From Bifidobacterium choladohabitans (GTDB lineage Bacteria; Actinomycetota; Actinomycetes; Actinomycetales; Bifidobacteriaceae): a stretch of DNA of 64,000 nucleotides. Below the pieces are notes generated by a model. That model was not told the DNA's origin, did no database searches, and saw nothing but the letters and a program-made list of their open reading frames with translations. The position numbers were made by a program, and so were the translations under genes. Below are positions 48,970 through 61,166 of this stretch, one piece after another (the stretch's first letter is position 1; every line of letters starts with the position of its first letter). The DNA is taken from assembly GCF_016102005.1 (NCBI RefSeq), contig NZ_JACFPL010000002.1, positions 248,001-312,000 of the forward strand, given 5' to 3'.

Positions 48970-49024
48970 TGTGATATAGCTCACGTCGCGATTCGGTTTC
49001 CCGTGGTAACGCGCCCCCTATACT
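48970..49024 (+). promoter_or_regulatory. pflB promoter with CRP/GlxR-type palindrome
   Basis: TGTGATATAGCTCACG (48970-48985) fits the CRP/GlxR-type pattern TGTGA-N6-TCAC with central TA. Downstream, TATACT (49019-49024) is a strong -10; a -35 is not obvious, as for activated promoters. Transcription would start near 49031, leaving a ~50-nt leader with AAGGAG before the ATG. Confidence 0.55.
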
Positions 49025-49080
49025 TGAAAGTGACAGTGGTGTGAGGAAGCGCCATTGACCATATCAACAAGGAGTTGACT

Positions 49081-51456
49081 ATGACAGCAGTTGAGACCAA
49101 TACCGTCTCTCCCGCAGAGCTGCAAGCCAAGGCTTGGAAGGGCTTCAAGGGCGAGGACTGGAAGAAAGACATCGACGTTCGCGACTTCATCCAAAAGAAT
49201 TACACTCCGTACACCGGTGACGAATCCTTCCTGGCACCGGCCACCGAGAAGACCAAGTTCCTGTGGAACTACCTGGATGACAATTTCCTTGCCGTAGAGC
49301 GCAAGCAGCGCGTCTACGACGTGGACACCCACACTCCGGCGGGCATTGACGCCTTCCCGGCCGGATACATTGACGGCAAGCCTGCCGGCGAAACTCAGGA
49401 CGACGTGATTGTCGGCATTCAGACCGATGTGCCCTGCAAGCGCGCGATGATGCCCTACGGCGGCTGGCGTATGGTTGAGCAGGCCCTCAAGGAAGCCGGC
49501 AAGGAGCCCGATCCCGAGGTCAAGAAGATCTTCACCCGGTATCGCAAGACCCACAACGATGGTGTCTTCGACGTCTACACCAAGAGGATCAAGCTGGCCC
49601 GCCACAACAAGATTCTGACCGGTCTGCCCGATGCTTACGGCCGCGGCCGCATCATTGGCGACTATCGTCGTGTGGCCCTGTACGGCATCGACGAGCTGAT
49701 TGCCCGCAAGAAGGCCGACAAGGATTCGATTCCTTACCGCAACGATTTCACCGAGGAAGAGATCGAGCACTGGATTCGCTTCCGTGAGGAGCACGCCGAG
49801 CAGATCAAGGCTCTGAAGCAGCTGTTGAACCTGGGCAAGGAGTACGGCCTGGATCTGAGCCGTCCTGCCATGAACGCCAAGGAAGCCGTCCAGTGGACCT
49901 ACATGGCCTACCTGGCCTCGGTCAAGAGCCAGGACGGCGCCGCCATGTCCATCGGCCGTCTGTCCGCCTTCTTCGACGTCTACTTCGAGCGTGATTTGGC
50001 CGCTGGCCTGATCGACGAGACCGACGCCCAGGAGATCATCGACAACATCGTGATGAAGCTGCGCATCGTGCGCTTCCTGCGGACCAAGGACTACGACAAC
50101 ATCTTCTCGGGCGATCCCTACTGGGCCACCTGGTCCGACGCCGGCTTCGGCGACGACGGCAGGCCCATGGTCACCAAGACCTCCTTCCGTCTGCTGGCAA
50201 CCCTGACCCTGGAGCACCTTGGACCCGGCCCCGAGCCCAACATCACCATTTTCTGGGATCCGAAGCTGCCCGAGGGCTACAAGCGCTTCTGCGCCCGTAT
50301 CTCCATCGACACCTCCGCCATCCAGTACGAGTCCGACAAAGACATTCGCGCCCATTGGGGCGATGACGCCGCCATCGCATGCTGCGTGTCCCCCATGAGG
50401 GTCGGCAAGCAGATGCAGTTCTTCGGCGCCCGTGTCAACTCCGCCAAGGCCCTGCTCTACGCCATGAACGGCGGCCGTGACGAGATGACCGGCATGCAGG
50501 TCATCGACAAGGACGTAATCAAGCCTGTCACCCCCAAGGAAGACGGTTCTCTGGACTTCCAGGAGGTCAAGGACAACTACGAGAAGGCCCTGCAGTGGCT
50601 GAGCGAGACCTACGTCGAGGCTCTGAACATCATCCACTACATGCACGATAAGTACGACTACGAGTCCATTGAGATGGCCCTGCACGACAAGGAGGTCTAC
50701 CGCACCCTGGGTTGCGGCATGTCCGGCCTGTCCATCGCCGCTGACTCCCTGTCGGCTATCAAGTACGCCAAGGTCTACCCGATCTACAACAAGGATGCCA
50801 AGGGCACTCCTGAGTATGTCGAGGGCGCTGACGACGACCTGATCGTCAACTACAAGACCGTCGGTGAGTTCCCGATCTACGGCAACGACGATGATCGCGC
50901 CGACGATCTGGCCAAGTGGACCGTGTCCACCGTCATGGGCCAGATCAAGCGCCTGCCTGTCTACCGTGGCGCTGTGCCGACCCAGTCCATCCTGACCATC
51001 ACCTCCAACGTGGAGTATGGCAAGAACACCGGGTCCTTCCCCTCCGGCCACAAGAAGGGCACCCCGTACGCTCCCGGCGCCAACCCCGAGAACGGCATGG
51101 ATTCGCACGGCATGCTGCCCTCCATGTTCTCCGTGGGCAAGATTGATTACAACGACGCCCTGGACGGCATCTCGCTGACCAATACAATCACCCCTGACGG
51201 CCTGGGCCGCGACGAGGATGAGCGTATCAACAACCTAGTGGGCATCCTGGATGCCGGCAACGGCCACGGGCTCTACCACGCCAACATCAACGTCCTGCGC
51301 AAGGAGCAACTGGAGGATGCTGTCGAGCACCCCGAGAAGTACCCGCACCTGACCGTGCGCGTCTCGGGCTACGCCGTCAACTTCGTCAAGCTGACCCGCG
51401 AGCAGCAGCTCGACGTTATCTCCCGCACCTTCCACCAGGGCGCGGTGACCGACTGA
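49081..51456 (+). CDS. pflB: Formate C-acetyltransferase (pyruvate formate-lyase)
   Basis: Glycyl-radical enzyme that splits pyruvate with CoA into acetyl-CoA and formate in anaerobic sugar fermentation; cytoplasmic and oxygen-sensitive. The 791-residue protein carries the active-site cysteine pair Cys434-Cys435 (IACCVSPM) and the radical glycine Gly763 in RVSGYAV near the C-terminus, both at expected positions. ATG 49081 is chosen because AAGGAG lies 6 nt upstream. Codon choice (many GAC/GTC/CTG, few rare codons) suits a highly expressed gene. The activase gene follows 98 bp later across a hairpin. Confidence 0.97.
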
Positions 51457-51553: not shown

Positions 51554-52435
51554 ATGACGGAGACCACCACCTTCCATACCACACACCCGCACATGCTCAA
51601 GGAATCCAAGGTCTACCAGAGCCAGACGCTGATGGGCGGCCTTTCGGGGTTTGAATCGCCCATTGGACTGGACCGGCACGACCGCATGAATGCCCTGCGC
51701 ACGGGCGACATCGGATTTGTTCACTCCTGGGACATCAACACTTCGGTGGACGGGCCGGGTACAAGGATGACCGTCTTCATGAGCGGATGCCCCCTGCGTT
51801 GCCAGTACTGCCAGAATCCTGACACCTGGAAGATGCGTGATGGCCAGCCCGTATACCTGCAGGCCATGATCGACAAGGTGGCCCGCTACCAGGACCTCTT
51901 CAAGAGCACGGGCGGAGGAATCACCTTCAGCGGCGGCGAGTCCATGATGCAGGCAGCCTTTGTCTCACGTGTCTTTCGAGCCGCCAAGGAGATGGGCGTC
52001 CACACCTGCCTGGACACCTCGGGTTTCCTCAATCGCAACTACACCGATGCCATGATTGACGATATCGACCTGTGCCTGCTGGATGTCAAATCCGGCGACG
52101 AAGCCACCTACAAGAAGGTGACCGGCGGAACTCTGGCCCCTACAATCGAATTCGGCAAGCGTCTGGCTGCCCGTGGCAGCAAGATCTGGGTTCGCTTCGT
52201 GCTGGTGCCTGGGCTGACCGACTCCGAGGAGAACGTCGAGAATGTCGCTCGGGTGTGCGAACAGTTCAAGGATGCCATCGAGCACATTGATGTGCTGCCC
52301 TTCCATCAGCTTGGACGGCCCAAGTGGCATGAGCTGCGCATTCCTTACCCGCTGGAGGATGCCAAAGGCCCCTCTGCGGCTCTGAAGGATCGTGTCAAGA
52401 AGCAACTGGAGGCCCACGGCTTCGTGGTCTACTGA
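51554..52435 (+). CDS. pflA: Pyruvate formate-lyase-activating enzyme (radical SAM)
   Basis: Uses S-adenosylmethionine and a 4Fe-4S cluster to install the glycyl radical on PflB. The 293-residue protein has the radical-SAM triad C79-x3-C83-x2-C86 (GCPLRCQYCQNP), the glycine-rich GGGITFSGGES, and a C-terminal VLPFHQLGRPKW region typical of PFL activases. The N-terminus carries an extra ~50 residues before the conserved start. AGGAGG lies 5 nt before the ATG. It is downstream of pflB, separated by a terminator-like hairpin, and closed by a second terminator. Confidence 0.96.
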   Translation: MTETTTFHTTHPHMLKESKVYQSQTLMGGLSGFESPIGLDRHDRMNALRTGDIGFVHSWDINTSVDGPGTRMTVFMSGCPLRCQYCQNPDTWKMRDGQPVYLQAMIDKVARYQDLFKSTGGGITFSGGESMMQAAFVSRVFRAAKEMGVHTCLDTSGFLNRNYTDAMIDDIDLCLLDVKSGDEATYKKVTGGTLAPTIEFGKRLAARGSKIWVRFVLVPGLTDSEENVENVARVCEQFKDAIEHIDVLPFHQLGRPKWHELRIPYPLEDAKGPSAALKDRVKKQLEAHGFVVY

Positions 52436-59394: not shown

Positions 59395-61166
59395 TGCTGG
59401 AAGAGCTGGAAGTACGAGACCTGGGTCCCATCCACCATGCCCTGCTGCGCCCTGCTGCTGGCATGACGGCCATCACCGGGGAGACCGGGGCTGGCAAGTC
59501 CATGCTGCTCAACGCCATCAGGCTGATCTCAGGGTCCACCGCCCGTCCGCAATTGGTGTCGCCCGGAGCACACGAGTCCTGGGTCCAGGGGATTTTTGAC
59601 GCTGGCTCGCCGGGAGCCGAGAATCCAGTGACCGCTGTCATAACCGGGGCTGGCTTGCCCTTGGAGGATGAGGGGCAGATCTTCCTGGCGAGGGCCATGC
59701 CTGTCAAGGGGCGTTCCCGTGCCGCTCTGAACGGCAGAACTGCTCCTCGAGGCCTGCTGCAGGAGGTGGCTGGGATGCTGGTCACTGTCCATGGCCAGGC
59801 GGATCAGATGCGTATGGCCAGCCCGGCCCGGCAGCGTGAATTTCTGGATGCCTACGCTGGTGACGGTCCGCAGCTGGAGGCTTTTTCCAAGGCCTTCAGG
59901 CAGTACCGACAGGCCCAGGACCATCTGGAGGAGCTGCGTAACCAGCAGTCCGGCGCTATGGCCCAGGCAGATTATCTCCGGGAATCCATCGCCCGGATCG
60001 ACCGGGTCGACCCGCATTCCGGCGAAGATCGTGAACTCAAGGCTCAGCGGGACAGGATCGAGCACGCGGCCCAGATCAGTCAGGGAGTCATGGCCGCACT
60101 GTCCGCCCTGGACTCCGGCCAGATCGACCCGGATGCCGATGCACCTTCGGCTACGGCCTTGGTGGAACGGGCCATTGCCGCCCTGGAGGGCATCGGCGTG
60201 GAGGGGGTCTTTCAGGAGTCGGCCCAGCGGTTGCGGTCGCTGAATGCCGACCTGTCTGACCTGGTCTTCACCCTGAGCAGCCAGCTGGACGACGAGGGCC
60301 AGGAGGGCGACCTGGACAAGATCAACGCACGCATTCACGATCTGGATGAGCTGACCCGACGCTGGGGGCCGGACATCGACGACGTTCTGGCCTGGCGCAA
60401 GAAGGCTGCATTTGAACTTGAGGACATGGATGCCTCACCCGAGAAGCTTGAGGAGCTCCAAGGGCAGGTTGAGCAACTTCGCGGAAGCGCTTTGAAGGCC
60501 GCTCGGAATCTGTCTGTGTCACGGGGCAAGGCTGCACGAAGGCTGAGCGAACTTGTCGACGGTGAATTGCACTCCCTGGCCATGGCGGGTGCCGGGCTGG
60601 AGATCCGCGTCAGACCACGTCAGGACCAGGACATGGATGTGCATGGTCTGGATCAGATCGACTTTCTCTTCAGGCCGTATCCGGGTTCGGACCTGCTGCC
60701 CATGGGCAAGAGCGCCTCTGGCGGCGAACTCAGCCGACTCATGCTGGCCCTGGAGCTGGTGGCCGCCGAAGGCCGGACATCATCGCGGCCTGACGGGTCT
60801 GGCCATGGACATGCTGGCCGTGATTCCCAGGTCGGCGACTCGACGATGACCTTCATCTTCGACGAGGTGGATGCTGGCGTCGGCGGTCGGGCAGCTGTAG
60901 AACTGGGTCGTCGTCTGGCCCGGCTGGCGGTCACCGCCCAGGTGATCGTGGTCACACACCTGCCGCAGGTGGCTTCCTGGGCTGATCGACAGTTCGTCGT
61001 GGCCAAAGGGAGTGAAGGCGGCGATGCCGTAGAGACCCTGGTTCGCCAGGTGGAGGGCGAGGACAGGGAGCGGGAGATTGCCCGGATGCTGGCCGGCAGC
61101 GAGTCCACGACCTCCCTGAAGCATGCCCGAGAGCTTCTGTCCTCCAGCAGGCTCCAGGTCCGATAG
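59394..61166 (+). CDS. recN: DNA repair protein RecN
   Basis: SMC-like ATPase in double-strand break repair; 590 residues. Walker A GETGAGKS (about 31-38) and Walker B TFIFDEVDAGVGG (about 483-495) flank two coiled-coil arms (about 160-230 and 320-390). The signature SASGGELSRL is present. ATG 59394 is chosen over TTG 59391 because AAGGAG lies 5 nt before it. It overlaps nadK by one base. A 459-bp region without a clear gene follows. Confidence 0.94.
   Translation: MLEELEVRDLGPIHHALLRPAAGMTAITGETGAGKSMLLNAIRLISGSTARPQLVSPGAHESWVQGIFDAGSPGAENPVTAVITGAGLPLEDEGQIFLARAMPVKGRSRAALNGRTAPRGLLQEVAGMLVTVHGQADQMRMASPARQREFLDAYAGDGPQLEAFSKAFRQYRQAQDHLEELRNQQSGAMAQADYLRESIARIDRVDPHSGEDRELKAQRDRIEHAAQISQGVMAALSALDSGQIDPDADAPSATALVERAIAALEGIGVEGVFQESAQRLRSLNADLSDLVFTLSSQLDDEGQEGDLDKINARIHDLDELTRRWGPDIDDVLAWRKKAAFELEDMDASPEKLEELQGQVEQLRGSALKAARNLSVSRGKAARRLSELVDGELHSLAMAGAGLEIRVRPRQDQDMDVHGLDQIDFLFRPYPGSDLLPMGKSASGGELSRLMLALELVAAEGRTSSRPDGSGHGHAGRDSQVGDSTMTFIFDEVDAGVGGRAAVELGRRLARLAVTAQVIVVTHLPQVASWADRQFVVAKGSEGGDAVETLVRQVEGEDREREIARMLAGSESTTSLKHARELLSSSRLQVR

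Follow-up and report, generated by a model that had tools for sequence, protein, structure and literature searches.

The gene pflB of Bifidobacterium choladohabitans, coding for formate C-acetyltransferase, is preceded by a palindrome resembling the operators of Crp- and GlxR-type regulators, which raises the question of whether this palindrome acts as an operator and, if so, for which protein, in which sense and in response to which signal. The locus was analysed within a window of 64 kb, which denotes here the whole stretch of DNA presented above, together with the remaining genome (G000) and the genomes of related Bifidobacteriaceae.

The pflB promoter region

The original prediction had described a CRP/GlxR-type site of the pattern TGTGA-N6-TCAC with a central TA upstream of pflB, and the pattern is matched exactly by the 16-mer TGTGATATAGCTCACG (Table 1). 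Compared with the complete palindrome TGTGA-N6-TCACA and with the GlxR consensus TGTGANNTANNTCACA (PMC4254451), the only mismatch concerns the last base. The 16-mer is separated from the TATACT box by 33 bp, corresponding to 41.5 bp between the centre of the site and the -10 box. The product of pflB, as translated from the ATG at 49081, reaches 1010 bits with the respective model (cut-off, 994 bits), while pflA was named from its sequence and position.

Table 1. Features of the pflB locus, with positions referring to the window.
Feature	Position	Strand	Basis and remarks
Crp/GlxR-type operator (candidate), TGTGATATAGCTCACG	48970..48985	+	sequence; kept in 66/66 Crp-carrying relatives
-10 box, TATACT	49019..49024	+	sequence; strong, no -35 box of note upstream
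Hairpin, CAGTGGTG-TGAGGAAG-CGCCATTG	49034..49057	+	fold; stem kept in relatives
Ribosome-binding site, AAGGAG	49068..49073	+	sequence
pflB, formate C-acetyltransferase	49081..51456	+	ORF; TIGR01255
pflA, pyruvate formate-lyase activating enzyme	51554..52435	+	ORF with radical-SAM CxxxCxxC, directly 3' of pflB

At up to one mismatch, the window contains 13 matches to the motif versus an expectation of 13.8; another exact match is found at 60942 within a recN-like coding region. Since near-matches appear at chance rate, the motif alone proves little. For the 242-bp intergenic region before pflB, 0.0016 exact matches are expected, and the genome-wide search proposed with the original prediction returned 12 exact matches (at 11 distinct places) versus 3 for a reversed control pattern. 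As a bare motif, the pflB site is weak evidence; it is the conservation across the family that lifts it above chance.

A separate feature of this region is the hairpin with a conserved GTGAAGATGCG-like loop region, placed directly at the 5' end predicted for the pflB mRNA or close to it. Its stem bases covary across the family, with 72% of the cells being paired versus at most 42% after sliding by 1 to 3 columns, and the pairing exceeds that of all 2000 shuffles. An Rfam search of the entire window, including the hairpin, yielded no family match. The hairpin may serve to shield the end of the mRNA or as a binding site for a regulator.

Conservation of the site in the Bifidobacteriaceae

TGTGA-N6-TCAC occurs before pflB in all 66 Crp-carrying Bifidobacteriaceae, i.e., the examined genomes of the family that contain Crp and have upstream sequence available at pflB; it is exact in 64 and one base off in the remaining two. 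The site is located at -104 to -135 in the relatives (measured from the start of the match), and the expectation in shuffled upstream regions amounts to 0.045 of 42. After dereplication to 42 promoters, each of the nine columns in the arms contains 1.84 to 2 bits, whereas the mean of the 50 flanking columns is 0.16. The family consensus reads aaTGTGAnnWAnnTCAC[GT]. An A invariably follows the W of the core, and 40 of the 42 promoters have G or T as base 16, which gives the site a direction; the deviating last base in the window follows the same G-or-T rule.

The site is missing within 400 bp of pflB in all five testable pflB carriers without Crp (G208, G034, G066, G067, and G068), a small and mostly divergent group whose assemblies are 76-89% complete; a further carrier without Crp, G029, was left out because of too little upstream sequence. 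The cleanest case is G208, which has a PflB of about 84% identity and an assembly of 89% completeness, and from which Crp is likely missing. The PflBs of the other four are about 50% identical, and their lack of the site could have other causes. The co-occurrence of site and Crp is given without a P value, because related genomes are not independent. As judged from this comparative evidence, the pflB site is real and functional, and its assignment to the CRP/GlxR type, together with the expectation that relatives keep the palindrome upstream of pflB, is borne out. A member of another genus of the family (L036 in G033) carries several more TGTGA-type palindromes in a row at -196 to -140 before pflB, upstream of the conserved site.

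Helical phasing of site and promoter

A good -10 box lacking a good -35 box, as anticipated for an activated promoter, is also found when the relatives are considered, with the best -35 match at the pflB promoters averaging 2.45 of 6 positions. In addition, the spacing is phased. The distance between the centre of the site and the first base of the -10 box is 41.5 bp in 30 of the 42 promoters, 40.5 or 42.5 bp in four, 51.5 bp in five, and 61.5 bp in two; for L043, a value of 66.5 bp was returned by the script, yet an equally good TACACT box is present at 40.5 bp. Roughly three groups account for the exceptions (G129/G069/G096, the small-genome pair G174/G104, and genus g6), and in each of them the offset is exactly 10 or 20 bp. 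These steps are expected under selection for a single helical face and, combined with the missing -35 box, argue for an activator touching RNA polymerase.

With the start point predicted as 12 bp past the first base of the -10 box, near 49031 in the window, the centre of the site is positioned near -53.5, -63.5, or -73.5. The value of -53.5 differs from the classical class I and class II positions, which counts against an activator and in favour of Crp acting on this site as a repressor of pflB, a mode of action within the repertoire of the Crp family. However, the site is located upstream of the promoter in 10-bp phasing, and the promoter is devoid of a -35 box, in contrast to the repressor-like overlap of site and promoter at adhE (see below). 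A repressing Crp at pflB is therefore regarded as unlikely, and an activating role is preferred.

The probable regulator and its competitors

The listing of CRP/FNR homologues, which had been proposed as a check, revealed a single protein with a cyclic-nucleotide-binding domain in the genome (Crp/Fnr type; G000:C7:41536-42252, L052). Among proteins of solved structure, it is closest to 7ets ("Crp/Fnr family transcriptional regulator", E 2e-102) and next closest to GlxR of Corynebacterium glutamicum, with which it shares the recognition segment SRETVNKAL, invariant in 34 relatives. The phosphate-binding cassette GEILGEIPVFDPSGGPRTASA retains the cAMP-type RT and is two residues longer than that of GlxR. 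Within the family, 165 of 189 genomes encode Crp. The window genome belongs to the B. asteroides group, its nearest named relatives by Crp protein being the bee dwellers Bifidobacterium mellis, B. asteroides, and B. apousia. A search for class III adenylate cyclase (PF00211) was negative in 121 family genomes and positive in C. glutamicum; home-made cAMP is thus questionable as the signal of the bifidobacterial Crp, with the search covering class III cyclases only. No published Crp regulon for bifidobacteria was found in the openly accessible literature searched, nor were any papers dealing with PDB entry 7ETS or with a Crp/GlxR protein of bifidobacteria.

In E. coli, pflB is controlled from upstream by FNR, an activator of the Crp/Fnr superfamily. 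The arrangement is similar to the one considered here, but FNR recognizes TTGAT-N4-ATCAA and contains an iron-sulfur cluster, whereas a CRP-type site and a cysteine-free Crp are found in the bifidobacteria. An oxygen sensor of the FNR type was ruled out, because the Crp proteins of the window genome and of the 34 relatives contain no cysteine at all and consequently no FNR-type iron-sulfur cluster.

Another candidate for the site is Rex, an NADH-responsive repressor, whose operators before adhE and pflB in Firmicutes share the TGTGA-N6-TCACA layout as well as the targets, both genes being classical members of the Rex regulon. Rex differs from Crp as a repressor sensing NADH/NAD+, and its DNA-binding domain (PF06971) was not found in the window genome, which is 99.99% complete, although the same search was positive in several control genomes; furthermore, the upstream position and the 10-bp phasing suit an activator rather than a Rex-type repressor. 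Occupation of the site by Rex is hence very improbable in this genome. Of the redox or carbon control envisaged in the original prediction, the carbon or energy part stays plausible in view of the relatedness to GlxR and the nature of the target genes, while the redox part finds no support, as Crp is cysteine-free and Rex was not detected in the window genome.

The LacI-type proteins AraQ and MalR1, known as global regulators of bifidobacterial central metabolism, are further competitors, as both bind the pflB-pflA promoter region of B. breve in EMSA (PMC6882875). Moreover, the AraQ/MalR1 operator (PMC4746261, PMC6882875) resembles the pflB site in its TGTGA/TCACA arms, its target, and its upstream activating position, and a LacI-type gene is encoded near the ara genes of the window genome (C7:6729). 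However, the 14-bp AraQ operator TGTGAGCGCTCACA has a spacer of four bases (PMC4746261), whereas six bases separate the arms of the pflB site in all relatives, and the positions at which AraQ requires GCGC are free to vary. The original prediction had allowed for an AraQ-like regulator, but the 14-bp operator is absent from the pflB promoter of the window, where the best upstream match shows 5 mismatches. In several other bifidobacteria, a separate AraQ-like element precedes the N6 site by 17-54 bp, which agrees with the location given in the literature, "33 bp upstream of the -35". The N6 site constitutes a second element beside the AraQ-like one and is found throughout. Occupation of the pflB site by AraQ or MalR1 is rated as quite unlikely, and GlxR-type Crp is retained as the preferred regulator. 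As a side aspect, no AraQ operator with 0-1 mismatch was found in the whole genome G000, and the AraQ regulon known from other bifidobacteria may perhaps be reduced there.

Other candidate targets of Crp

Nine genomes were scanned for exact sites, and part of the hits were followed up. Recurrent exact sites are located upstream of clgR (seven genomes), adhE (six), and a pyridoxamine-oxidase-like gene (three), those of pta, ldh, zwf, nrdD, and a nitroreductase-like gene occur in two genomes each, and sites at gldA and pgk are present in the genome of the window. The names of adhE, ldh, zwf, pta, gldA, pgk, nrdD, and clgR are based on NCBIfam models, with several partial sequences scoring below the curated cut-offs, and those of the nitroreductase- and pyridoxamine-oxidase-like genes on inspection only. 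At the most recurrent target, clgR, the palindrome is located in the cinA-clgR intergenic region of seven of the nine genomes (L003, L145, L200, L156, L160, L190, and L168). A fixed distance between site and promoter was also sought at the other targets, and none proved as regular as that of pflB.

At adhE, a -10-like TAnATT sequence adjoins the upstream side of the Crp-type palindrome at the same offset in all six promoters (L002, L149, L194, L159, L128, and L185). The position of this site suggests a repressor-like role, in which the bound protein would block the polymerase; the adhE start point is predicted to fall within the palindrome. A perfect TGTGA-N6-TCACA is also observed 150-185 bp upstream of nrdD in two genomes (L011 and L118); the encoded anaerobic ribonucleotide reductase is a glycyl radical enzyme like PflB.

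Discussion

Taken together, the palindrome is with high probability the operator of a bifidobacterial GlxR-type Crp, which would activate a pflB promoter equipped with a good -10 box but no -35 box. In the proposed mechanism, a Crp dimer would bind the palindrome, some 53 bp before the predicted start of pflB and on the DNA face from which RNA polymerase is within reach, and would thereby recruit the polymerase to the promoter. We infer Crp binding, activation by this binding, and a carbon or energy signal.

The closest parallel is provided by the GlxR operators of C. glutamicum (e.g., that of ldhA; PMC7999487, PMC4254451), which share the TGTGA-N6-TCAC pattern with a TA-type centre, are recognized by a protein with the same recognition segment, likewise occupy an upstream activating position at a fermentation gene, and in their natural forms also miss the perfect consensus. 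Unlike these operators, the bifidobacterial site is directional, as defined by the A after the central W and the G or T at base 16, and unlike GlxR, the bifidobacterial Crp contains two extra residues in the phosphate-binding loop and comes from a family in which no class III cyclase was found.

If active Crp recruited the polymerase at pflB and blocked it at adhE, PflB would increase, yielding formate and acetyl-CoA, while AdhE and thus ethanol formation would decrease, the likely logic being that acetyl-CoA is directed into the formation of acetate and ATP. B. breve produces acetate, formate, and ethanol under sugar limitation, and lactate and acetate in batch culture (PMC10269484), a product shift that fits a carbon or energy signal. 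Note, however, that ethanol increases rather than decreases alongside formate under sugar limitation (PMC10269484), which is a poor fit to simple repression of adhE. A fermentation switch operating throughout the family, in which a GlxR-type Crp responding to a signal other than home-made cAMP activates pflB, represses adhE, and stands in for the undetected Rex in deciding between formate/acetate and ethanol, is put forward only tentatively, as a possibility with less than even chances.

Regarding its wider significance, pflB is a new target for a known kind of regulator, and the interest of the case is raised by the conservation of the site, its phasing, and the unexplained signal. The missing class III cyclase turns the signal of Crp into a question for a simple ligand assay. 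Depending on the supply of sugar, bifidobacteria shift their products from lactate to acetate/formate/ethanol or back (PMC10269484), and this shift shapes how gut organisms cross-feed. The pflB site offers a conserved and testable control point.
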